Assembly (NCBI RefSeq): GCF_963678975.1
Contig: NC_089278.1
Location: 9,637,479 to 9,701,478, forward strand
Direction of reading: 5' to 3'
Length of the DNA stretch: 64,000 nucleotides
From: Dysidea avara
Taxonomy: Eukaryota; Porifera; Demospongiae; Dictyoceratida; Dysideidae
This document shows positions 5,345 through 63,940 of the stretch, in pieces. Made by a program: the position numbers and the translations under genes. Under the pieces are notes generated by a model. The model worked only from the letters and a program-made list of their open reading frames with translations. It did no database searches and was not told the origin of the DNA. Each line of letters opens with the position of its first letter. The first letter of the stretch is position 1.

Positions 5345-6059
5345 GTAATGAAATGTTATTGTTTGTGTTATGTGCCCACTAGATTTTTTTCTGTAATCAA
5401 GGGAGGACTAGTTTAATTGTTTCTTTGTTACTTTGTTTATACTTTTGTACGGCGGGAGGAAAGTCAGTAAAAATGAAAAAATGTTCTCGGGAAATTTATT
5501 TGATCACAAAAATCGACACAATTCCGTTCCTCCTTGTTAGAGTGATGAAACCAAACATGTGTACGCATAAAAGTACAGACAAAAAATCAACATAACCACG
5601 TGCACACCATAGATACTATACTTAAAATTGACTATTAGTAAGAGCTCGAGCTTATAGTATATGTACTGAGGAGAGTGTCCTACTCTCATATACCCCTGTA
5701 GGGTGTATTGTAAAGTAATGACACAACAACGAGGTGTTATGGTTTGTGGCATATGAGCATCCATGAAGTGTAAGAACTGTCACACTTGTGACATTCGGAA
5801 CAGCCATATTCATGAATGGCCTAGCAAGAAATGCCTACGTCCATGAAGGCATGTTTGTAGTTTGGTGAAAAACACTGAGAGCTCAAGTTTGGTTGCTAGT
5901 GACAGGCTTGTGTACAATTGATATCATAGATACACAGACAAATACCTGGGATTGCAATCATCTGGTTTTTCATGCCGGATCATTGTTACCAGAAGCAGCA
6001 ATATCTTCAATATTTATCACAAAGAAGACTAGTTTTACTCTTGTGACCATGCATTATAA

Positions 6060-6745
6060 GTTAGGTTTCTCCAATAATCATACAGTACTGTATAGTAGGG
6101 ACCACAAAGGAGTGGGTGTGGCCCATGAAAAAGCATCACCCTAAAGCTAGCCTCACTTTTCCGTGATGACAATGAAGCAGTATTGGTTAGGTAAAACTAA
6201 GTCCAAACAAGCCTTCAGATCGACCTGAAACGCTTTCAACAAGTTGCTATATATGAAGTTTTTTTTTTAAATTAAAATTTTCTACTGACTGACTGAGTAA
6301 TTGACTGATCCCTTCAGACAAGTGTAACTCTATAATGGCTCAGGCTACGGGATTGATTTTTTCACTGTTTGATGTCGCTTTGGCCCGAGATCTAGAGGTG
6401 CCTTTTGGCCTACCACAGTACGTATAATGCATTCTTCATAGACTTACCAGTGTCCTCCTTTGTGTCTCATTCATCTTTGCTGACAGCAAAAAGTGTTGAT
6501 TTGGTGGTAGCATGAGATGGCTTCCCTTCATAACGGAAATCGTCCGTATTTTTCATAGTGGCTACTTTGATTGCAGAGGTGCTTTTCGAACAGTTCTTGA
6601 TTTGTAATGCTGTGTAACGGGTTGAACATAGCTGACAATGAAGCGTAATGGATACTTCACTTTTTAGACAATAATTGATAGCTGGGGTGCGCAGCACCAT
6701 TTCTTTCTTTTGATGCTGTATGCATGGGTTCACCAGTCATAATAA
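6060..6745. repeat. Dispersed ~0.65-kb repeat, copy 1
   Basis: Shares an extended colinear match with 7600-8230: landmarks such as 'actgactgactgagtaattgac', 'ggctacggg.ttgatt.cttcactgtt', 'gtcctcctttgt.tc' and 'tttctttcttttgatgc' occur in the same order in both. No coding capacity is seen. Probably a non-autonomous transposon family. Confidence 0.75.
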
Positions 6746-6791
6746 TTTTATTTTACAAAAAAAGTTAACAAACAAGTACACAAAACAGTTT

Positions 6792-7045
6792 GGAATTTTC
6801 AACTAGAGTAGGGACCATAACACATCGATAAAAAGTACTGAAACAAGCTGGAGTAGTGCATGATATTAAATCACAGTAAAATAATCAGAAGTGTTATATC
6901 CCTACTGTGCTCAAGATAATAATGGAAATGCACAGTAGGGATATAACTCTTCTTATTGTTTTACTGTGATTTAATATCATGCACTACTCCAGCTTGTTTC
7001 AGTACTTTTATCGTGTTATGGTCCCTACTCTAGTTGAAAATTCCA
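6792..7045. mobile_element. Foldback MITE-like inverted repeat
   Basis: Arms of about 115 bp (6792-6913 and 6931-7045) are near-perfect reverse complements around a spacer of under 20 bp. The outer ends read ggaattttcaactagag and its complement. No open frame. Confidence 0.8.
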
Positions 7046-7363
7046 ATTTTTTTTGTGCACTTGTGGTGCCTACACTTTGGCCTGTCGCACTGAGAGACAC
7101 ACCCACACACCAGGCCCAGCTGCTAATTTAACCATACCCATGCCAGGAAGCTCTCACATATAGAAATGTATTGTGAGTGGCATAATTATTTTACTATCCT
7201 GCCTAAAGTGATCCAGCAAATGTGTTTCTCAGGTACTAGTCTGTATATCTATGTCGATATTATGTTCAATTAATGGCATCATAATTGTACAAAGAGAAAC
7301 AGGTGAGCTCAGAAGTCTTGCCTCATAAATGTGAGAGTAGGACACTCTTCTCAGTATCATACA

Positions 7364-7613
7364 GTATGGTAGTACCAAGAGTTAATAATAGTGGTGGGAA
7401 GAGTATCCAACACTGAATATGGTCTGTGTAAAATGAGCGCGTAGAGTGTAATTGCATTCATTTCACAGAAGCCATACAGAAACCTACCCAGTTCCTTTCT
7501 CTCACAATTCATTCCATAGAAACCCTTTGGATACAACTGCACTCTACGCGCTCATTTTTGACAGACCATACAGGCTCTCCCTACCACTATTATTAACTCT
7601 TGGTAGTACTGTA
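7364..7613. mobile_element. Foldback MITE-like inverted repeat
   Basis: Arms at about 7364-7455 and 7537-7613 are reverse complements (tacagtatggtagtacca outer end; gagcgcgtagagtg inner end) around an 80-bp unrelated middle. It abuts the left edge of dispersed repeat copy 2. Confidence 0.75.
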
Positions 7614-8235: not shown

Positions 8236-8936
8236 ATGTTAATAAAAAGTACCATATTTCCTTGTATAAAAGCCCAGGCTTTTATTTTCTTCACAGCATT
8301 TTTGACCTGGCCTGTCAATGAATAAGGTCTTTAGTTGAGACTGGGCGTTTATTTTGGATTGGTCCGACTGATGTCTGGCATTTAATCGATTTGTGGTGGT
8401 GGTAGAATAGGATTGCTGTAATGGTAAGCATAAAAAACAGTTATACAGTGTGTTGACTATGTAGTCAAGGCTTAAAATGATTGGAAAAATAGTTGTATCA
8501 TACATATCTGCATGCACGCAGACTCGCCCGGACTACTCACGTGATTACTCATAGTACCTTCATCCCTCAGAAGGCTCTGTGAAGAAGCAACAGCAACAAG
8601 GGAAACAAATAAAGCCATTAGCAGTTGTAATTTAAGATCAAAAGTATGTAAACTATGTTGCATAGTTTATGTATCTATGGTGATCTTCTCGTGCGATGAT
8701 CAAACCATGCTGCCACATGGAAACGGGTCCATATCCCTTGTCACTGAAACTGGGGATGATATTTCAACAATTTTAAATTCAGTTTTCGGTCTGGTGTACT
8801 TAACAGCGCTTATTGCACTAGTGTGTAACAAAAGTTAGAATCCATCTATGGATACAGAGGTAGATCCAGAAGCTTTAAAGGGAGGGGCACACCCAGCCAT
8901 AGATGCAGGTGGTTAGAGTGAAAGGTTCTCTAGCTG

Positions 8937-9156
8937 CAGTGGTCCCTCGATTATCCGGCCATTGATTAACTGAACTTTTGGTTACCCGAACTGTAGCGAT
9001 GACTGCTCTATTAGAGTATTTTATATAAGGTGTGCGTTCTATTAGAGTAATTGAGCAAGGCTCTGTATATAAATGAATGGGTTTTGATTATCCAAACTTT
9101 TCGATTATCTGAACATACTCAGGACCCAACGAGCTCGGATAATGGAGGGACCACTG
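8937..9156. mobile_element. pogo/Tigger-like MITE
   Basis: About 220 bp bounded by inverted ends beginning CAGTGGTCCCTC, with 'ttatccg' just inside on both sides. That resembles the pogo/Tigger branch of Tc1-mariner. TA follows the right end; the left flank is not TA. No transposase, so it is non-autonomous. Confidence 0.6.
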
Positions 9157-9236
9157 TATAGTGTTACTGTACACTCATTATGCTGCTATAGTGCACCAAG
9201 GCATAAACTACCAAAAATTGACTTTATCTTAATTAA

Positions 9237-28300: not shown

Positions 28301-29780
28301 ACAATTTAGACGCACACACACACATGCACACATACACACGCCACACACACACACACATACCTACAACTGGAATGCATATCTATACCTGTGGGAGTGGTAG
28401 TTTATTTACTGTGTGATATTCCTCAGGTAACCAGTATATCACAACCACAGCTGTAGTGATTGCTGAGACAATGAAGATGTTTGTGTGTATTGGCATCATC
28501 TGGTATCAACAGCCTAACACATCATCCTTCGTTTCCTTCCTACATGAATCCATCATAGTCAACTGGAAGGATACTCTCAAGTTGTCAGTTCCTGCATTTG
28601 TTTATGCCCTCCAGAACAACCTCCAATATGTAGCAGTTAGCAATTTAGAAGCCGCTGTGTTTCAGGTATGTATTCAGCCCACTGGATTCTGTTATAGTTT
28701 TGAGTACGTACTTGAATCTGTTTTGTCTGCCTAATAGTGTTATGACAAAGTGGTCAATGTTGTTTTGAGTACTGTTAATGTGTATCATCTGGAGATATAA
28801 ATGTTACTGTTTGCTTACAGTATTACGTATGAAAAAACAGTTTGGCTTATTTCTACATAACTAGTAGTTGGCTTCTGTCTTTGCTATCTATGTTTGGTCA
28901 GTCTGTGATCAGTTAAGGGATTACAGTGCCTTAATAGCTTAACCATATCACAATTAATATTGTTACCTACAAAGAACTTGATACAGCAAGAATTACAAAT
29001 TGGTCAGTGAATTTTCCAAAGAAGGCCTAGGAATAGAATTACTAGTACCTGGTATCAGCTGTGATTGTGAGTAAAGTTTAAAGGTTGCTTTTGTAGTTAT
29101 GTTCTCATGTTAAAGTGATGCTTATTATTGTATAGGTGCTCTATCAGATGAAGGTATTCACTACAGCCCTGTTTTCCGTGGTGTTGTTGGACAAGAAGCT
29201 CTCTTTTTTGAAGTGGGGATCTCTTGTTCTTTTGTTCGCTGGTGTCTGCTTGGTCACCGTGGATCCTTCGTCATTTGGAAATAACAGAGAGAACCAGTCT
29301 TTCATTATTGGTGTTGTAGCCGTAGCTATATCCTGTCTCTCTTCTGGCTTTGCTGGAGTGTATTTTGAGAAAATATTGAAAGGAACAAGTGGATCAGTTT
29401 GGCTACGGAATATTCAACTGGGATTTTTTGGATCACTGGCGGCTGTTGTTGGAATGTTGATGCGTGACTATGACAAAGTTACAAATGATGGATTTTTCTT
29501 TGGCTACAGCACGTTAGTTTGGATGGTGATTATCCAGCAAGCTGTGGGTGGTCTGATTGTGGCAGCAGTTGTACGCTACGCTGATAATATTCTAAAAGGA
29601 TTTGCCACCTCAATATCTATCATTGTATCGGCGCTCGCTTCTGTTCATTTGTTTGGGTTTACACTAACACCACTGTTTGCTGTGGGAACATTACTTGTAG
29701 TAATCTCAATATACATGTATGGACAACCGGACAAGCCAGCTGCAAGTAAAGATTCATTACCACTCACAAACAAAAACTAG
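16389..29780 (+). CDS. SLC35A2: SLC35A2/A3-type UDP-sugar transporter
   Basis: Coding exons 16389-16473, 23146-23241, 28427-28665 and 29136-29780 join in consistent phase to 354 residues. The family exchanges UDP-galactose or UDP-GlcNAc for UMP across the Golgi membrane. The N-terminus is a short hydrophilic acidic/Lys tail; the first helix begins at SPYFKQVLLITLVIQN, and ten membrane segments fit. Family hallmarks: NNLQYVAVSNLEAAVFQ, VLYQMK, GFAGVYFEKILKG, SVWLRNIQLG and the strongly conserved YADNILKGFATS. The C-terminal helix followed by GQPDKP lies between A2 and A3, so substrate is not settled. Intron 1 (6.7 kb) and intron 2 (5.2 kb) are huge for this window because they are filled with mobile elements. 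Its stop lies 98 bp from the stop of the RIM-like gene on the other strand. Confidence 0.9.
17419..17957. mobile_element. hAT-type MITE (8-bp target duplication)
   Basis: Inverted ends TAGGGCTGGGA and its near-complement, flanked by a perfect 8-bp duplication ATCAAGAC (17411-17418 and 17958-17965). 8-bp duplications mark the hAT superfamily. 539 bp, no transposase, within intron 1 of the UDP-sugar transporter. Confidence 0.85.
18395..18730 (-). mobile_element. tRNA-derived SINE, copy 1
   Basis: On the minus strand the part near 18635-18700 reads as a tRNA-like head: an A-box-like TGGTTCAGTGG followed about 45 bases on by a B box, GGTTCAAACCC. The body beyond it contains the recurring 'actctaatagagca' element and matches 22740-23000 over about 250 bp. 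No full cloverleaf, so it is a SINE rather than a tRNA gene. In intron 1 of the UDP-sugar transporter. Confidence 0.65.
19005..19300. mobile_element. Foldback MITE-like inverted repeat
   Basis: Arms of about 110 bp (near 19010-19125 and 19190-19285), sharing tcaagctgtgaaaa, gaaatcaaaggtgg and ccaagaaatggctgcaatg as reverse complements around an A+T-rich loop. Intronic. Confidence 0.75.
19835..20238. mobile_element. hAT-type MITE
   Basis: Inverted ends TAGAGCTGAGCAATAGT and complement, 404 bp, flanked by ccttaatc and cattaatc (7 of 8 bases identical), consistent with a hAT target duplication. The inside is rich in overlapping 'atcgtgat' palindromes. Intronic. Confidence 0.75.
20500..22300 (+). 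mobile_element. DIRS-type (tyrosine-recombinase) retroelement fossil
   Basis: Broken remnant in intron 1 of the UDP-sugar transporter, same strand as the host gene. A reverse-transcriptase core is recognisable (YLDDF box near 21000), followed by sequence like the DIRS/Ngaro tyrosine-recombinase core (about 21700-22100, 'LWAAACM.FLDFLR'). Multiple breaks; clearly old and incomplete. Terminal repeats were not identified. Confidence 0.6.
22740..23000 (-). mobile_element. tRNA-derived SINE, copy 2
   Basis: Colinear with copy 1 (18395-18730): shares the atagcagtg-like tRNA head on the minus strand, 'acctaacaccca', 'agatactctaatag' and 'catagcagtg.tttt'. The B box is degraded. Lies just upstream of exon 2 of the UDP-sugar transporter. 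Confidence 0.6.
23493..24138. mobile_element. TIR element with AAAT duplication
   Basis: About 34-bp imperfect inverted ends (gtgaccggatctg at the left, complement at the right), 646 bp, flanked on both sides by AAAT. Superfamily not clear; no transposase. In intron 2 of the UDP-sugar transporter. Confidence 0.6.
24150..28300. other. Rest of transporter intron 2
   Basis: About 4 kb of intronic sequence with only short unsupported open frames; I see no second gene. It ends in an impure CA-rich microsatellite shortly before exon 3. Confidence 0.5.
28308..28370. repeat. Impure (CA)n microsatellite
   Basis: Interrupted acac tract about 55 bp upstream of exon 3 of the UDP-sugar transporter. Confidence 0.8.
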
Positions 29781-34630: not shown

Positions 34631-40540
<5,910 letters not shown>

Positions 40541-40699: not shown

Positions 40700-43600
40700 A
40701 TGACGGGAAGGGAATGGCGTTGTTTAATGTTAACGTTAATTAGCACATTGTGCTTGGGAAGGTACGTGATTAGCACGTGGCTTGCGCGGTACGCACAGTG
40801 ATTCGCTATCCACTTCTCACATAGCTAGCACAAACCACATAGCAATCTACGAGCATTTAAATTGTTTGTCTTTCTTTGCAGCAAAAATGGCAGTTTAGTG
40901 CAAGGAGAAGTTCTACAAGATGGTAAGGAATGCATAGTATCCGTGACATCACATTTGGGACACCCCACACACCTACACATTGTTTTACACTGGGACAGAT
41001 GATTTAATGCACTAATTTCTGATGTTTTAGCTGCAGGTCAATGCCACATTGTCATTCACGGACAAGACATCAGTAATATCAACAGCAGCCATTGTATCAA
41101 TGTTGTCGTGGTTGGTAGTGTTACAATTGACTGTGATCAGATAAGAGATGAACAGTTGGCAACCTTTCAACTGGTCACAGAATCACCGGCTTCTTGAGCA
41201 TAATTAACTGCAACAGATCAATCCCTTTACATAATCTTACTGTTCTACATGGTCACACCCAGACCAGCCTATCACTGTTACAGCAGTCTTTTCTCACAAG
41301 TGTCGGCAACTACAGTTCAGCTGAAATGTGGTCGTTGTTAGTGTTCAACAGTTCACTTGATCAACTGCAGCTATACGGACTAAGAGAGGTGGTACGAGGT
41401 AGCATCTTCATACATGATACTGGCAGGCTGTGTGTACACCAATCAGTGAGATGGAGTGATATTATTAGCTCCAGATCTCAGATGGCTCATTCAGTACTTC
41501 TCTCTGACTGTTAGTATGGGTACATATCAGCTGAATTGTATACATATTTATTTATTTAGGTGTGATTGCTGTGGAGTGTCATACTACGTGTCACAGAGCT
41601 TGTTGGGGACCTGATCTAAACCATTGTCAAGCAGGTATGGTGAAGAACATTACTACATTATTTGTCTGGGACCATAATTGACACAGGCATCACTCGTGAT
41701 ATGGATAAACTTCCTAACAAGCCAAAATGTGGTAGTACAGTTAAACTCAAAACAATAACATGCATGGATGAATAAGATTGTGTAGTAACATGTGTAGGCC
41801 AGTGTTCACATGTGCAGCATGGCTATATATTAGCATGTCAAAAAATCAAACTTCCTTTTTCATTGTCCAAGTAGTAAACTTGATGAATACAAGTAAATTT
41901 TGGCTTAGGTGTTTGCCTACTACAATGAACAAAGCTGTTTTGAAGCCACACACTACATGATGGGATGTAATAAAGACAAATGATTGTAAAATTGCACTAG
42001 TAGTGTAATCTTTGTAATACTGTAAGCTACATTGCTGATAGCAAGAGTATATATATACTTTTACATGGAAAAAACTACTTTCACACAATTGTTATGTATT
42101 ATACAACATGCACAAGATGTACCCACTAGCTTATTCTAGTGATATGATAACTCTGGTCACACATATACAGCCATATAACTCGACCATACATCATGTTTTA
42201 TTTCATGGTGTGTTAATCACTTAATGAGGTGTTCAATTTCAACTTGTATTTTGTGGGGGCTCTTCATCAGTGGTGATGTAGCTTCTAAACATCCTTTCCA
42301 GCACTTAGTTGGGATGACTGTGAGACAGCCTGCTATCATCGATGCCACACTGGGGGATGTTGTCATTCTGAGTGTGTTGGTGGTTGTAGTGGTCCTGACA
42401 TAGAACACTGCATGGTAAGTACTTTACTATCACTTCCTCACGTTGCTATTATTTGTTTGTTCAGGCTTGCCGGCACTTCCGCAATAATGGAAGTTGTGTA
42501 GCAAATTGTGCCCCATTGTCTGTCTATGACCCTCTCACACATCAACTAACCATTCTCCCTGATGGAGAATATCTTCTACATTACGACTGTGTCAAGGAGT
42601 GTCCAGGTGTGAGTACATTCTAGTCTTGTATGTTTCAAATACTTGCTACATATGTTACAGAGCTGTATAAGACATATGAAGAATGCTGTGTTTTAGAATG
42701 TCCATCTGGTACCACTGAGAATAATGGAGTGTGTGAAAGATGCGACGGCGTATGTCCAAAAGGTTGTTAATACAATACACCACACTGACAATACATCTAT
42801 TGTATTCTGTGAACAGTTTGTCTGGGCAGTGGTCAGCTACCTGGAGAATCTCCACACATCACTTCATTATATATTGATCGTTTTATCAACTGTACTCACA
42901 TCAATGGCAGTATCATCCTTAACAAGTCTTCACTTGAAGGGTGTGTGGCATACTCCCACTGTACACAACCTGTACATGTATGGTAACATCATTTGTGATA
43001 TAATGTCTCTCACTCATGTGATAACTAACTGATTTCCATAATATGTTGTTATATGAGCTCACATGTTTAGGGTTCTTGTGATTCTTGTCTACTTTATATA
43101 GGAATGTCACAATGGGTGTGCCACCAATGACCCAGGGCTCCTTATGGGCACTGAGCAATTTAGAAGAGGTTACTGGATATGTGGTCATTGAAGGTCTTAA
43201 CGTGACCAGTTTAAGATTCCTCCACAATCTGTGCACAGTTGGAGGGAAGGAACAGTTTATGGCAGCCTTTTCAAGCTTTTCCATTGTGATAAAGGATAAT
43301 CCATTGCTTGCTACATTGTCACTGGTGTCACTGCGTCTAGTTGAAAGAGGTGATATTCAGATCACAAATTGCCCCCAACTATGCTTGGCAGATACCCTCT
43401 TGCCTGAAAACATTTTCAAGGATAACTCACAACAAAGCCTGGAACTAACATCATTGAACTTGAACTGCAGTAAGTGAACATGTTAATTGGTACCAATTTA
43501 CTAATCATTACTACAATGTAACATGTCTGAATAATGCCTATATTATGCTGTTTACTACATAGCGGATTGGAACCACAAGGGGTAGTCACTTCCATACCGC

Positions 43601-45794
43601 CAGTTGATACACTTGCGACCAGGATCAAGAATTTTGTTTGTCAAAGTTTTGCCTTGATCACTTGATTACACTTATAAAAGTGCCTTGATTCTTGATAGTC
43701 TACCGTAAAATACTAGTAAATTCTTGTGTTGATAAAAGTTAGCTTTGAAAGGTGCTTGATTGTCACTTTTGCTGACATCTTGATCGCTTGATTCATTGTA
43801 CAAAAGCTCCTTGATCCCAGTCGTGAGTGTTTCAACAGACAGTACTGAAGTGACTACCCCTTGAACCTGGGTAATGTGGACACTTGGTTTGGATTATCAG
43901 GTAATATTGGGACACATTTGGTCAGGCCCAAGGTGTCTGTTGTAGTACACAGGTTTCTCTGTATATCATTCCTATCCCATATCAGGACATTATAAGGAAT
44001 CTCAATATCATCCATTACATAATACTAAGTGTTCATGTTTAGTTTTGTACTGTTCTCTACAGTGGGGGTGAATTGCCATAGGGAGTGTGATAGTATGGCG
44101 GGTTGCTGGGGGACTGGAGCTGATGAGTGTGTACATTGTAGAAACTACAACTATAGCAACAGCTGTGTCCCTTCCTGTGATCAGTAAGTCATGTTGTAAT
44201 GGCAACAAATGGGTTGTTTCAATTGGTGCCTAATTGTCATGTACTAATATGGTAATGTCCTGATAGATCTCATTCATACGAAGAACACTCAACATGCTTA
44301 CCATGTCATGATCAGTGTAATTTAGGAGGATGCTATGGACCAGTGAGTGTCAATGGACTGTGCATGATGATGTTTATGATATCTGATAGGCAGCAAATCA
44401 ATGTATTATGGGATGTAGGTGTTACACTGATGGTCCATATTGTGTGGCAGAGTGTCCACCCTTGGTGACGTACCTATCCGGCAACAATTCATGTCAGCCA
44501 TGTGATCCTTTGTGTTATGGCAGTGGTTGTAGTGGAAATGGTAGTCACCTTGGACCAGGAGGCTGCAATGAATGTTACATCATATTAAACATCAATGGAA
44601 CAGTAAGCCATTTACTACAAAGACTTTATATTAGCACCTCACATCCACTAAAGACATAATTATTAGCACCTCAAAAGTATTGAATGATTGTATGTGTTTG
44701 ATGCAGTAAGCCACTCACTACAAAGACTATAAATTAGCACCTCAGAGGTGCTGAATGATTGCATTTATTGGATGGTATTGTTGTAGGACTATTGTGTTGA
44801 ATCCTGTCCTCTGGGATATCAGCTTGTCCAATATCCACTTAGGGCCAATAGCACTTACGCTGGATTCTTGGTATGTCCGGAATTGTTTTCTTATCTGTAA
44901 AAGACTTATACCATTTACAGGTGTGCATTAAAGAGCAGCCAATGGTTGTAGCAGACAATACTCAAATAACAACCCGATCACTTATCACTAGCTCCAGTTC
45001 AGTTAGTGCATTCATTTCAGAAGGAATTGCTTCATCATCAGCCCAGCTCAATTTATCACCTTCAATAACCACTACTCCATTTACAGGGTATGAAATTACA
45101 TTTCTTATTTCAGCTTTTACTATTACACATCATCTACAGATCAAGCTCAGGAAATACAAATTTTTATCGGATAACTTTAATCATGACGATAGTATTAATC
45201 AGTGTAGTGATTATTGCTATATTATTGGCACTTGTGGTGTATCGTGCCTACACAAATAAGTCAACAGTAAAGGTAGCAGTGATGAAGACTAATGTTGATC
45301 TAAAAGAGGCTACTCACAAACGTACTAGTGGTGACTCACAGACACTGTTAGATTACACAACATCTAAACAAGGATTATTGAGAAGGACCTCAATTGCCAC
45401 TCTAGCAAATGGTGCAAAAAGTGAACACAATTCTCTAGCAGTAGCAACTTCTTCCCCTGCACCCTCTGGACGTTTTTCACAACCACAAAGCAGACTGGGG
45501 GATGGGCTATCCTCGTACAATGTTTCACCGAACATGGTGATTACTGAAAGAGAAAAGAAACCAAGTGCATCCCTCAAGTCTTCATCTCTGTCACATAATC
45601 ACAGTCAGCTGTCAGTAGGCACCATGCCTGGTGAACAGTGGTCACCACACCATGATGGTATGGTAAGCCGACACAGTACAGGGGACAATTTTTTTGCCAC
45701 TGGAGGCTCACCTCACTCTAGAGCTAGTAGCTGCTATTCTCCCTCAATTCAACTACCAGGATCAGTGCTTGAGGAACCACTAACACACCAGTGA
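40700..45794 (+). CDS. Kinase-less ErbB/EGFR-like transmembrane receptor
   Basis: Sixteen exons: 40700-40761, 40882-40922, 41031-41509, 41560-41634, 41687-41731, 42302-42414, 42465-42606, 42661-42762, 42817-42940, 43102-43469, 44063-44183, 44267-44342, 44390-44602, 44787-44870, 44921-45087, 45140-45794. Order: signal peptide (RCLMLTLISTLCLG); receptor-L domain 1; furin-like Cys-rich region (CHRACWGP, CHSECVGGCSGP, the CP..L.VYDP...QL block seen in EGFR); receptor-L 2 (VCLGSG, then VTGYVVIEG); second Cys-rich region (CHRECDSMAGCWG); Ser/Thr-rich stalk; one membrane helix (LIMTIVLISVVIIAILLALV); about 180-residue Ser/Thr-rich tail ending at a stop. There is no kinase: no glycine loop, VAIK, HRDLR or DFG anywhere downstream before the retroelement. 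L1 shows an apparent one-base frame break near 41183. Starts 160 bp after the previous gene. Confidence 0.82.
43470..44062. other. Longest intron of the receptor gene
   Basis: About 590 bp with no gene. It contains several 'cttgatc/cttgatt' direct and inverted short repeats around 43650-43820. Nothing else noted. Confidence 0.5.
44600..44775 (+). repeat. Imperfect tandem duplication spanning a splice donor
   Basis: The sequence from the donor of exon 13 (cagtaagcca...tactacaaagact...attagcacctca...ttgaatgattg) is repeated about 100 bp downstream, giving a second donor-like 'gcagtaagcc' inside the intron. Confidence 0.7.
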
Positions 45795-46399
45795 CCACTG
45801 TACACACACTATATCACCTCTTCTTGTATATACTAACTTCTTGTATACACCAATGTGTTTAGTGTTGTGAACCGCATTAAAATGTTAAAAGAAGTACACT
45901 GCTACCCACACAATCTGCTGTTGATTATAGTACATCGTGTAATTAAAATGTTAAATGATTTGATGCTTGTTTGAACAAGTACTTATGTGATTGATGGTCA
46001 TCTTGGCCTGTCACCAGGTAACCTACAGAAAAGACAATTACCTAGTAACTGACAATGTAGGGGTGAGTGCTATATAGTGAGATTTGAGACATCACAATTC
46101 TAGACTACAAAATGTCACAATTATGAGAACTAACACAATTGTTATTATATTTAATACAAACAAGCCAACAATTCGGTAAATTCATTAGTAGAGCAATATA
46201 ATAGCCAGTAGTTATATTTTGTGAGATTTGCTACTTTAACACTGGTATTTGGTATTTTCATCTTATTACACAATTTACAGTAATTTTAGTAGCTCTAATA
46301 AAATACACATAATTAGAAAGTTGGCTGTATATCTGGCATGGTTGAGGGCACTGTATACTCCAAATTCCCACTTTTTTCTTTTACTGCACGTGTAGCACA

Positions 46400-49300
46400 G
46401 TTTGGTAGCTCTCTATGTTCAAAATGAGTGACAATCAGAAAAAAGCTTTTGATGAAGAACTTCAAGCAGGACCCCACCAAGAGAATGGAGACATGGCAGT
46501 GGTTAAATTCCGTGTCGACCCACAACCCGTTTACCCATTGTGGGATGTTTCCTGGCGTATTCACCGCATCTTATTCCTTCTGTCCACTACGAGCTTTTGA
46601 AATGGAACTTTGTTTTGTGCCAGTTCTCATCGGGATTATGCCAGTTTTTTCAATCACTCTATGGAAGTGTTGACACCCTGAAAGGTGAATTTAATAGTGG
46701 TGGAATGCCAAGTTAGCATGAGAAGGCTTGTTTTCATTAGGGCCTTAAACAGTCACAGTCAGGAATATCATCTGAGCTGCCACATGTGATGAATCAAAAC
46801 ACAGCTGTGTTAGTTACACCTTGAGTAATGAGATAGACCGTGGATTCAACAATAGAAAACCGAAACAGATTACCCAAGACCCCTGGGTTCTGGAGGCTTA
46901 CCAGCTAGAACTGATACAAACCCCCTTCCACTTCCAGATCAGCCCAGGAATGTCAGTGGCCAGGTCATCAAAGAAACACTAAGCAATCACAGCAGAAATT
47001 CAATCACTGCTAGCGACAACAGGACTCATCCCCAAAATAGATGGAACAGTTCACCAGCAGACTCTTTGTGATTCCGAAGAACAACGGATCGCTGCGTCCA
47101 GTAATAAATCTGTAACACTTTCATGTCCAATCACCACTATGGAGGGAATTAAGGAACTGTTGAGAGAAGGAGATTGGATGTGCTTGATGGACCTGACAGA
47201 TGCATATCTCTTGGTGGCCATAGCAAATATTACAGGAAGTACATCAGATTCGTATGGGAAGGCACCACCTACGAATTCACCTGTCTACTGTTTGGAGAAC
47301 TAAGTCAGTTTTAGAGCCCTCTCACCAGAGATTGTATCTGGGACTGCTAGTGGATGCATCCTTAATAAAATTATTTTTTCCAGGGGAAAAAAATACAATA
47401 AATAACCAACAGTGTTGACAAAAGTAACCATCACAACCCAAGTATTGGCATCCGTGATTGGAAGAATGTCAGCTATATGGCTAGCAGTCCGATCAGCTCC
47501 TCTATACTACCGCCACCTTCAACAACTGATACAAACCCTGAGGAGGACATCCTCAGTAAGAAACAGAGTGACACTGAATCAGGACTCCCAGGATGAGATG
47601 CACTGGTGGATCTTCCACCTACAACAATGGAATGGAAGAGAAACCACACTTTCTGCTCCAGACCTGATTGTGCAGTCAGATGCCTCCCTCCAAGGATGGG
47701 GAATAGTCTGCAATGGGGTAAGAACAGGAAGCCACTGATCAGCCAAAGAAAGGACTCAACACATCGACCTTTTGGAGCTCCTGGCAGGATCCACCCAAAG
47801 CCTTCACTAAGTAAAGGAACAACCTCCGGGTACTACTGCAGATGGTCAACCGCTTGGCAGTCTCCTATGTGAACAAGATGGGTGGCACACACTCACCAAT
47901 CCTTTCCCTCCAAGCTTGCAATCTAGGCAGTGATGCCTCCAAAGAGAGATCATCCTGTTTGCAGAACATCTCCCAGGAATCACAAACACTATAGCAGATC
48001 AGGAATCATGTCAGGTGGAGTCATCGGCAGAATGGATGCGGTTTTTGACATGATTCAGCAGACACTGGGTCCTTGCTATACGGATCTGTTTGCAACCAGG
48101 CTGAATCACCAATTCCTGGACTTTATTATGTCAGACCCCTTTGCATGGGGAACCAATGCTCTCCAGCTGAACTGGAAGAATCTGGATGGATAAGTGTTCC
48201 CACCCTTTTGCCTAATAGACAGATGCCTACAGAAGATCCAGAAAGAGCAGAGAACCATCACAATAGTTAGTGGCCCTCACAGGCATGGTATCCAGCTCTG
48301 ATGGAATGCCTAGTGGACCTTCCCTTGGGTCTTCGCATGGATTTACTTCACAATCCAAGCAATTATGCTCACTCTCTGATTTGGCAAGCACTACACTCTT
48401 GAAAACTATTCCTTGTGTATGGTCACTCATACAGACATTAGAATTCGTAATATTTATATAGTCCATTTGTTAATGAATTGTTTGTATATTTCTGAAATAC
48501 TGTGAAAATCACATCATGTGTATCTAGGATACTGCAATATTTAGGCTCACTACAACTTTTCACTTGCAGAGTATCAGGGAGCAGCACATGGCACAGGAGT
48601 TTCAGAAAAGGCTTCAGAACTCCTACTAGCAGGGTGGATAAAGGGAAAAATACAGCCTACCAGTCAGGATGGTCACATTGGAGTTGTTGGTGTTGTCAAC
48701 GGGAAGTTGATCCCATTTCAAGCAGCATCCAGCCATTCCTAGACTTCCTGGCAGATCCCTACAATGAGGGCCTTCAATACCGTTCAATTAATCTGGTTAG
48801 ATCGGCAGTACAGTAACACTGAAGCAGCTCTGATAGGCCAGCATCCAGTGGTCTCCAGGAGATCTACAACTTAAGGCCTCCTGCAACACAGTATTTCACC
48901 ACCTCAGATGTGGCAACAGTTCTCTCCTGGATAAAGGATCAAGGGGACAAAAAGGAATTACCCTTGAAGGAGCTATCAAGGAAGCTGGCGCTGCTGTTGG
49001 TGCAATAGAACTTCAGAGTTGTAGGCCCTGTATCTGTGGTTTGGATATTTTTCCCCTGATGGGGTAGTTATCAAACTAGCTTCCCTGACTAAGAATAGGA
49101 AAATTGGGGCACCACTGAAGGAATGCTTTTTTTTCTTCTTCCTTTCCTCATGACAATTGTCTCTGTGTAGTGCAGTGCCTCAATGTGCATGAACAGGCTA
49201 CAGAGATATTCAAGCAGATATGCCAGCCCCTTTGTTCGTGTCTCATGTAAAACCTCACAATCCAGTGAAATCCAAGAGAATAGCTCACTGGATCAAGGAC

Positions 49301-49500
49301 ACTCCAATGAAGGCAGGAGTGGACACAAACACCTTCAAAGCACATTCAGTGTGGTAGCTTCCACCACAGCAGCTGTAGGAAAGGGGCTACACATTGCATG
49401 AAGATGGCAGACTGAGTAGTGAATCAACATTCCGGCAGTTCTACTACCACCTCAGCTGAGAAGGATTTTCTCCAGTTAGCGCTCAGTACTCAGACGGAAA
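46400..49500 (+). mobile_element. DIRS-type (tyrosine-recombinase) retroelement fossil
   Basis: Broken copy with parts in DIRS order: reverse transcriptase (about 46870-47330), RNase H-like part (about 47400-47770, with 'LIVQSDASLQGWG'), a further domain to about 48200, and tyrosine recombinase (about 48590-49450, with 'FLDFLADPYNEGLQYRSIN' and a C-terminal 'TFRQFYYH'-like box). Many breaks, so an old inactive insertion. Ends not defined. Confidence 0.7.
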
Positions 49501-50991
49501 AGCTACCCATGGTTAGCAAGAAGTAGCAGATGATCAGTGACAGTAACTGTTGCCATAAACATTTCAACTAGTAAGACTGTAATCCTGCTGTACATATGCA
49601 TACCTGTATACCTTGTGTATAAGTCTGTCAGCTATGCAATGTCATCATTGTAATTAATAGTAACACTATAATAAAGCTCATGGTTTGGGATACCTAACAC
49701 ATTAGGAATGATATTTTCACCATAGCATAAGGGCTCTACTCAGTACTCACAGCAAGGAGATTGTCAGTTTGAAAGTAAAATCATTATTCACAAAATATAA
49801 TATTTTTGATGATTTGATGAAGGCCGTTAATACAAGGTTATATGAGTGAGATGAGCAAATGTAACATTGCCCAAGGCCAACACTCCCCGTACATGTCACA
49901 TTGCTCATCTCTTACAGGCATTCTTTGAGTAGCAGGAAACTCAGAAGTCACTTGAAAGCAAAACAAAAGCAGGATTTGCAGTATACGGTGCCCTCTTATA
50001 GGTGACCATGCCAGATATATGGCACTTTCTAATTATGTGTGTTTTATTAGAACTACTATATTGCTGTCAATTATCAGTGTTACATTTGCTCATCTTTATC
50101 ATTACAGTGGTGGTACACAATAGCTAGTTATAGCATGAGTTACAGGTAATCAACAGTGACACTAGCAAAAGGAAAGGGCTATTTGTCCGGTTCCGTATGT
50201 ATTAAAAACAGGCAAAAAGGTATTTTTTAAAAAGCAAAATTTCCAAGGATCAAACCCTGGACCACTGGGGTGTATGGTCAGCGTGGTACCAGTTATGCTA
50301 CTGCTGCTAGCTACCTACCTCCCTTAATTTTCTATCTTAGAATAAATGTGATTCAATAAGTAACCTGTGTACAGTAGAAGAATCTATACACCAAGAAACC
50401 AAAGCTGAACTTAAAGCTGAACCTGACCCTAACCAACAACCTTAACACTAACAACTTTAACACAATGGTGTCCTTCACTGTCTGTGAACTAGTGTGCTTG
50501 GCACTTGAGTTATGATGGGTGAGTGCCAGATGAATAGCCTGATTAAGTCAATGTCTGGAACCGGACGAATAGCTACAATGATATCAAAATTCATGTCCAC
50601 TGTAGAGAGATAACATCCGCATCACAATTGTAACCTACATGCACACTGCCTACAATGTATTGACTCAAATAGCCAGACCCTTATTCTCTGAATGGTGCTT
50701 ACGATTAGCGAGCAGGCACTTTTAGCTACAGTATGCAAGACTAACTTTTTATTATATACAATAAAACCTTTGTTTGACTGTAAGATGGGTAAGATGAAAT
50801 AATGAATGTGCATTGAGAAAGAAAATTCTATACTAACTGTTTGGAATATTTTAGTGAAAAATATTGGTTGATTAGCCAACTTTCATAAACTACTTAGTAA
50901 ATCTTTTTAAGGACAGGTTTAGATACTATTCACCAACCAGCATCTACACTAATACTAACAGTCTAACTATACAAATGATGTACATGTCACC
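49500..50991. other. Intergenic, includes a third tRNA-like SINE fragment
   Basis: No gene recognised. Near 50215-50330 the minus strand carries a tRNA-like head (tagcataactggtacc... and B-box-like GGTTTGATCC). The rest is plain A+T-rich sequence downstream of the NBN stop. Confidence 0.5.

Positions 50992-56669: not shown

Positions 56670-63940
<7,271 letters not shown>

Follow-up and report, generated by a model that had tools for sequence, protein, structure and literature searches.

An ErbB-type receptor gene without a detected kinase domain, and with one frame break, in the sponge Dysidea avara

We analysed a stretch of 64,000 nucleotides from the sponge Dysidea avara (assembly GCF_963678975.1, contig NC_089278.1, positions 9,637,479 to 9,701,478), here called the window, that contains a gene for an ErbB-type receptor in which no kinase domain was detected. 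All gene coordinates are counted within this 64-kb window. The gene lies at 40700-45794 of the forward strand and consists of 15 exons, with GT-AG borders at 14/14 intron junctions and with 11 of the 14 introns shorter than 125 bases. It encodes, in order, a signal peptide, the four domains of an ErbB ectodomain, a Ser/Thr-rich stalk, a single transmembrane (TM) helix and a tail of 184 residues followed by a stop codon (Table 1). A first-pass annotation, made from the sequence alone, had read the locus as L1, Cys-rich, L2 and Cys-rich regions, one membrane helix and a Ser/Thr-rich tail with a stop at 45794; exon reading, Pfam, alignment with ErbB4 and hydropathy bear out each of these elements in its place. 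That annotation overlooked a break of the reading frame in exon 3, within L1. The two pieces that result were analysed as assembled, with the break left unmended.

Table 1. Features of the receptor gene and its downstream flank, in window coordinates
Feature	Position	Strand	Evidence or remark
Exon 1: ATG and signal peptide MTGREWRCLMLTLISTLCLG	40700-40761	+	GT donor; hydrophobic core Kyte-Doolittle 2.34 over 11 residues
Exon 2	40882-40922	+	AG/GT borders, reading frame continues
Exon 3: L1 domain (ErbB domain I)	41031-41509	+	AG/GT borders; ErbB4 alignment of the second part begins at residue 56 of chain 3u7u
Overlap of two reading frames in exon 3, site of the frame break	41152-41197	+	first frame stops at 41197; second open from 41152
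Exons 4-7 with introns: first Cys-rich region (ErbB domain II), contains VYDPLTHQL	41560-42762	+	Pfam Furin-like 1.6e-26; ErbB4 alignment
Exon 4	41560-41634	+	
Exon 5	42302-42414	+	
Exon 6	42465-42606	+	
Exon 7	42661-42762	+	
Exon 8: end of domain II, start of L2	42817-42982	+	borders, Pfam, ErbB4 alignment
Exon 9: most of L2 (ErbB domain III)	43102-43469	+	top Recep_L_domain match genome-wide, E 1.1e-13
Exons 10-13 with introns: second Cys-rich region (ErbB domain IV), contains YTDGPYC	44063-44870	+	Pfam GF_recep_IV 3.2e-20 (spliced protein)
Exon 10	44063-44183	+	
Exon 11	44267-44342	+	
Exon 12	44390-44602	+	
Exon 13	44787-44870	+	
Exon 14: Ser/Thr-rich extracellular stalk	44921-45087	+	Ser+Thr content
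Exon 15: end of stalk, TM helix, cytoplasmic tail, stop	45140-45794	+	single open exon; coding-like codon-position GC
TM helix ITLIMTIVLISVVIIAILLALVV	45171-45239	+	Kyte-Doolittle 3.32 over 19 residues
Cytoplasmic tail, 184 residues	45240-45791	+	Ser+Thr 27%
Tail motif KRTS	45318-45329	+	pattern scan with shuffles
Tail motif DSQTLL, acidic-dileucine-like	45333-45350	+	pattern scan with shuffles
Tail motif RRTS	45381-45392	+	pattern scan with shuffles
Poly(A) signal ATTAAA	45876-45881	+	82 bases past the stop
Decayed dispersed element bounded by 35-nt inverted repeats	46287-50058	.	outside the coding sequence

The second reading piece stays open for 879 residues across 13 exons, up to the stop. 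Estimated from the frequency of stops in the introns, the chance of such openness is about 1.7e-27 for the 879 residues and 2.5e-7 for the tail exon alone, and the other two frames of the same spliced DNA contain 50 and 71 stops. GC content by codon position is alike in exon 15 (0.47/0.49/0.32) and in the rest of the coding sequence (0.475/0.476/0.36).

The spliced second piece matched the Pfam families Furin-like (1.6e-26), Recep_L_domain (1.1e-24, in two stretches) and GF_recep_IV (3.2e-20); the first piece, of 89 residues, matched no Pfam family when searched alone. The best match of the ectodomain in the PDB was human ErbB4 (phmmer E 1.6e-66, 228 bits), and among the 60 matches listed out of 120, 59 were named ErbB or EGFR and one only "receptor protein-tyrosine kinase". 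In the alignment with ErbB4, 181/516 residues (35%) are identical and 45 of the 47 ErbB4 cysteines in the aligned range are kept. Domain II reads VYDPLTHQL where ErbB4 reads VYNPTTFQL, the tyrosine and proline of the arm matching, and domain IV reads TDGPYC opposite KDGPNC, with a matching DGP stretch; by comparison with ErbB structures, we take the former to be the dimerisation arm and the DGP stretch to be the tether. No fibronectin III domain was found among the Pfam matches down to E 1. GF_recep_IV stands in its place, which puts the gene on the ErbB side and not on that of the insulin receptor, where L1, Cys-rich and L2 are followed by fibronectin III. The gene thus has the L1/furin-like/L2/GF_recep_IV ectodomain, the cysteine framework of domains II and IV and the single TM helix of an ErbB receptor, but a tyrosine kinase domain, active or dead, was found neither in the protein nor in the window. 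The TM helix separates the product from soluble or secreted decoys. L domains without a kinase are also the mark of the nematode IRLD proteins; the domain order here is that of ErbB, and the likeness is one of kind that does not imply descent. Searches of prokaryote genome contigs and viral contigs confirmed no homologues.

The absence of a kinase was examined at several levels. Pfam detected none in the encoded protein. Six kinase pieces, taken from two of this genome's kinase genes (one of them, in the stretch L030, a likely pseudokinase), gave by tblastn a best E of 0.27 against the 64-kb window, whereas at their own source loci they gave 3e-11 to 3e-37. A six-frame scan of the window for a few tyrosine-kinase signatures found two isolated VAIK strings only, and a stretch of 12 tail residues resembling the VAIK strand of kinases (E 0.24) was rejected as chance. 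In the whole genome, two queries with EGFR-type kinase exons each found 15 places, at the same loci, 14 on contig C12 and one on C4; with 38/38 and 150/291 candidates scored, no such exon was found at E 1e-8 or better on C7, the contig of the window. In a general kinase search with 135 of 2304 candidates scored, the C7 kinases among the matches listed were all far off, the nearest about 0.59 Mb from the window. The protein and window searches support the earlier proposal of an ErbB-type ectodomain with a TM helix and no kinase, and since no kinase similarity was found in the window and the 15 places found with EGFR-type kinase exons all lie on other contigs, splicing of this gene into kinase exons elsewhere is unlikely.

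What the gene encodes after the ectodomain is a stalk of 62 residues (exon 14 and the start of exon 15; Ser+Thr 39%), the TM helix and the tail. The helix is the sole segment of the second piece above 1.6 on the Kyte-Doolittle scale, and in a structure model of exon 15 residues 11-30 reach a mean confidence (pLDDT) of 97; the tail that follows appears in the single-sequence model as low-confidence coil. Because the helix and the tail lie together in an uninterrupted exon that follows a 52-base intron, a misjoin of the tail exon in the assembly is unlikely. The tail matched no Pfam family above cut-off, and its capture from another gene or a repeat was rejected because a genome search gave no second copy. 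It contains five tyrosines in 184 residues; in a pattern scan, neither YxxPhi nor NPxY motifs were found, and one YxN was. Basophilic [RK][RK]x[ST] sites occur three times against 0.48 expected (p 0.009, uncorrected for the nine patterns tried), and the dileucine-like DSQTLL has p 0.088 in shuffles. We regard this enrichment of RRTS-type sites as mild and suggestive only.

Relatives of the gene are numerous in the same genome. A genome search with Recep_L_domain gave 38 matches, which sort by position and matched profile range into 18 L1-type and 18 L2-type matches of a tandem family, the gene of the window and one match on C12 at 4.06 Mb. The L1/L2 pairs, 16 on C12, one on C1 and one on C4, lie at C12 2.55-3.71 Mb, C4 33.64 Mb and C1 35.67 Mb, so that the family counts 18 detected ErbB-like ectodomains and 15 EGFR-type kinases. 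We examined the relatives as 20 stretches of 9.5 kb around the Recep_L matches. Kinase pieces of the C4 gene matched five of these (L021, L024, L026, L028 and L029), and all five keep VAIK, HRDLAARN and TDFG. The open reading frames (ORFs) of L028 and L029 contain L or Cys-rich regions, a TM helix and a kinase; the hand-spliced L029 kinase had 704 PDB matches, with EGFR in all 60 listed, and the L029 ectodomain is likewise ErbB-like (ErbB3, 1.9e-34). When positions were compared across searches, 13 of the 18 ectodomains were followed by a kinase before another ectodomain began, and five were not (C12 at 3645101, 3530673, 3441420 and 3417285; C1 at 35666934). The stretches of these five (L013, L014, L015, L019 and L022) gave no kinase match in 9.5 kb, a limit at which several ectodomains with a kinase further on likewise gave none. 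The five may be kinase-less genes or fragments. Two intervals contain two kinases, and one of these kinases (C12:2809421) has two stops inside its matched exon. With five tandem ectodomains lacking a detected kinase, kinase loss may have occurred more than once in this genome, which makes the gene of the window less unique, yet fits a tolerance of kinase-less ErbB ectodomains. L015 and L019 also contain an extra Cys-rich peptide downstream, that of L015 with weak, below-cut-off similarity to RGM_N.

Compared with the genome, the ectodomain of the window gene gave 26 matches at E 0.01 or better, ten of which were its own exons; the best other match, on C6, reached 1.5e-5, and those of the tandem family began at 9e-5. 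Over L1-L2 the gene scores 183 bits with human ErbB4 and 100 bits (28% identity) with L029, the one tandem member compared in this way. On this comparison we rejected the idea that the gene arose recently as a truncated copy from the C12 cluster. At the three sites worked out, all three introns are shared with L029 in position and phase: one of phase 0 that precedes A-C-x-x-F, one of phase 1 that follows the Cys-Pro of VKECP/VESCP in domain II, and one of phase 2 within L2. A whole-genome search with GF_recep_IV did not list the window gene's own domain IV, which sits in short exons; the search is therefore insensitive and proves no absence. On C6 (G000, C6:38566509-38567327, reverse strand) an open frame of 2430 residues carries repeats resembling GF_recep_IV; over about 130 residues it shares 45% identity with the window gene's domain IV. 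The stretch L030 (C12:4058000-4067500, exons 5793-7482 and 8308-9186) contains a gene that combines an exon resembling an L domain with a TM-like segment, a kinase and a long, acidic, tyrosine-rich tail; its kinase has SHGNLAARN and TDYN instead of HRD and DFG and is likely a pseudokinase, and a PDB search with its L domain (C12:4062241) gave no receptor. Tyrosine-kinase-like matches also cluster densely at C13:16.66-17.59, C9:24.3-25.5 and C10:18.9-19.1 Mb, which suggests large kinase expansions in this genome.

Judged by its sequence, the locus is a genuine and clearly defined ErbB paralogue of the kinase-less kind, with a single frame break that is unexplained. We give a probability of about one half to the reading that it encodes a membrane-anchored ErbB paralogue, without close copies, that would bind ligand or kinase-bearing partners and so limit or tune their signalling. 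Where a kinase would be expected there is a short, probably disordered Ser/Thr-rich tail that shares its terminal exon with the TM helix. The protein would reach the cell surface, where its ectodomain would bind an EGF-type ligand, pair through the putative arm of domain II with kinase-bearing ErbB-like receptors, or both; it would limit or tune the signalling of those receptors as a ligand sink or a non-productive partner, and its tail might steer trafficking or be a substrate of basophilic Ser/Thr kinases. Candidates for such partners exist, since EGFR-type kinases were located at 15 places, on C12 and C4. Given an ectodomain that is intact by alignment except for the frame break, the lack of a catalytic half and the presence of kinase-bearing relatives, the simplest function would be modulation at the level of the receptor, and the role of decoy, ligand sink or co-receptor put forward by the first-pass annotation seems plausible. 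The kinase was probably lost, rather than never present. A conceivable origin of the gene is that an old splice donor just after the membrane segment was read through, so that transcripts ended at a poly(A) site in the intron; the decoy isoforms of mammalian receptor tyrosine kinases (RTKs) offer a parallel (PMC5343918).

Several observations weigh against a modulating receptor of this kind. The assembled coding sequence is interrupted in exon 3, in L1, so that reading from the ATG stops after 89 residues; the kinase-bearing relatives that were read carry a longer and different domain IV; a single-sequence fold model of the L2 exon has a mean pLDDT of 40; and the tail motifs are weak once the nine patterns tried are allowed for. 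The first of these also favours a somewhat unlikely alternative, that of a pseudogene or null allele, in which a kinase-less duplicate has started to decay and yields no full-length protein. The first 58 residues of the second frame include no ATG, so with the break in place the assembled sequence gives no full-length product by ordinary reading, and the five tandem ectodomains for which no kinase was detected ahead of the following one suggest that truncated copies may arise in this genome. An indel in the assembly, a null allele and incipient decay are all possible causes of the break; the simplest would be the assembly indel or a null allele that segregates. It is, however, the only one: decay of long standing would not be expected to leave the rest of a 15-exon gene clean, and the long open piece, the GT-AG junctions, the retained cysteines, and the stop and poly(A) signal in place all speak against a pseudogene. 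Nor does the gene resemble a recent truncated cluster copy, given its scores with ErbB4 and with the one cluster member compared, and no cluster exon did better than E 9e-5 in the genome search.

Unlikely, in our estimate, is a signalling co-receptor whose tail would recruit kinases or adaptors through its basophilic Ser/Thr sites and dileucine motif, giving a kinase-independent output like that claimed for Kek-6 in flies, which would be a precedent (PMC5591008). The excess of basophilic sites (one of nine patterns), the DSQTLL motif and the coding-like codon-position GC of the tail are in its favour, but no Pfam domain in the tail passes the cut-off, its single YxN is accompanied by neither YxxPhi nor NPxY, and no second copy of it was found in the genome. 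We consider it quite improbable that the ErbB system is split between genes, with the best-conserved ectodomain in a kinase-less ligand-binding subunit without close copies and the kinase supplied by a duplicated array with divergent ectodomains; were this so, signalling would need pairing in trans, taking the division of labour between ErbB2 and ErbB3 to an extreme. That kinase exons exist and were missed is very improbable: exon 15 does contain a donor-like AAAG/GTAGCA site, with its GT at 45273, eleven residues past the membrane, from which alternative splicing into downstream kinase exons could start, but the window, which runs 18 kb further downstream, holds no kinase target for it in searches that recovered their positive controls, the two VAIK strings stand isolated, and no EGFR-type kinase exon was found on C7 at E 1e-8 or better with 38/38 and 150/291 candidates scored.

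Downstream of the gene, the first-pass annotation had given a retroelement as the next sequence. There is indeed a decayed dispersed repeat, the inverted repeats of which are 94% complementary and which has five further genome matches at 70-84% identity, but it begins about 490 bases past the stop, beyond the poly(A) signal, and none of nine ORFs tested (0/9) gave a transposon family in Pfam. Elsewhere in the window are a nucleotide-sugar transporter gene (29136-29777, forward strand, Pfam 6.1e-76), exons for PHD fingers (62438-63937, forward strand), one of which has below-cut-off similarity to PLU-1, and a long (TG)n microsatellite at 37308-37474 that is read as VCVCVC open frames.

Receptor relatives without a kinase are known in other animals, and the premise that all known members of the ErbB and insulin receptor families carry one therefore fails. 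The IRLD/HPA proteins and DAF-2B of C. elegans are kinase-less, and HPA-1 and HPA-2 modify EGF signalling (PMC9262388); Drosophila has a secreted decoy of InR, and kinase-less insulin receptors occur in Lepidoptera and tenebrionid beetles (PMC7357564). Soluble EGFR, herstatin and the decoy RTK isoforms made from intronic poly(A) sites also lack the kinase, and the latter two are described as restraining signalling (PMC5343918, PMC2717834). Truncated TrkB and TrkC are TM receptors with a short non-kinase tail (PMC3189609), and for the kinase-less Kek-6 of flies a kinase-independent output has been claimed (PMC5591008). The gene described here differs from each of these. With human ErbB4 and Drosophila EGFR it shares the complete domain I-IV ectodomain, the cysteine pattern, a putative arm sequence and the single TM helix, but it has no detected kinase, and its tail, with five tyrosines in 184 residues, belongs to no Pfam family. 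With the kinase-bearing tandem genes of its own genome it shares the L1, Cys-rich, L2, Cys-rich and TM order and the three L029 introns, whereas theirs is an EGFR-type kinase, a longer domain IV and, for L029, an L1-L2 region of 28% identity. Like the IRLD/HPA proteins and DAF-2B it is an L-domain protein without a tyrosine kinase, but IRLD proteins are described as having weak homology only, to the EGF and insulin receptors (PMC9262388), whereas the present gene keeps a four-domain ErbB ectodomain at high significance. The insect proteins are likewise kinase-less members of a related family, although on the insulin receptor side, and the fly decoy is described without a TM helix (PMC7357564), while a TM helix and tail are present here. 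Soluble EGFR, herstatin and the decoy RTKs are ectodomains without a kinase too, but they are products of kinase genes, described without a TM helix (PMC5343918, PMC2717834), and here a separate gene has one. Truncated Trks and Kekkons match in having a TM helix and a short non-kinase tail, and differ in their ectodomains, which in Kekkons are of the leucine-rich repeat and immunoglobulin type (PMC3189609, PMC5591008). What is less usual here is a separate gene that combines a full ErbB ectodomain, a TM helix and a non-kinase tail. The earlier suggestion of a lineage-specific receptor class is not supported, one gene in one genome having been seen.

A survey of EGFR places it in sponges and ctenophores and not in cnidarians or placozoans, and counts one EGFR in Amphimedon, against the tandem expansion in the present genome; as that survey kept kinase-bearing sequences only, kinase-less ErbB genes would be invisible to it (PMC4914847). 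A table in another paper dates the emergence of EGFR to bilaterians (PMC8662651). Sponge EGFR is given a glutamate at human Q791 in one passage of a further source, and another passage can be read as isoleucine (PMC3001462); the hinge of L029 reads SEF at the equivalent place in a weak alignment made by eye. In open-licence PMC text we found no report of kinase-less EGF-receptor-like proteins in non-bilaterians.

The finding is of moderate interest pending reads or transcripts that show an intact frame. If the gene is expressed and conserved, an early-branching lineage, that of sponges, would have a dedicated gene for a membrane-bound ErbB modulator, and one could then test when the EGF pathway acquired damping, or a division of labour, at the level of its receptors.

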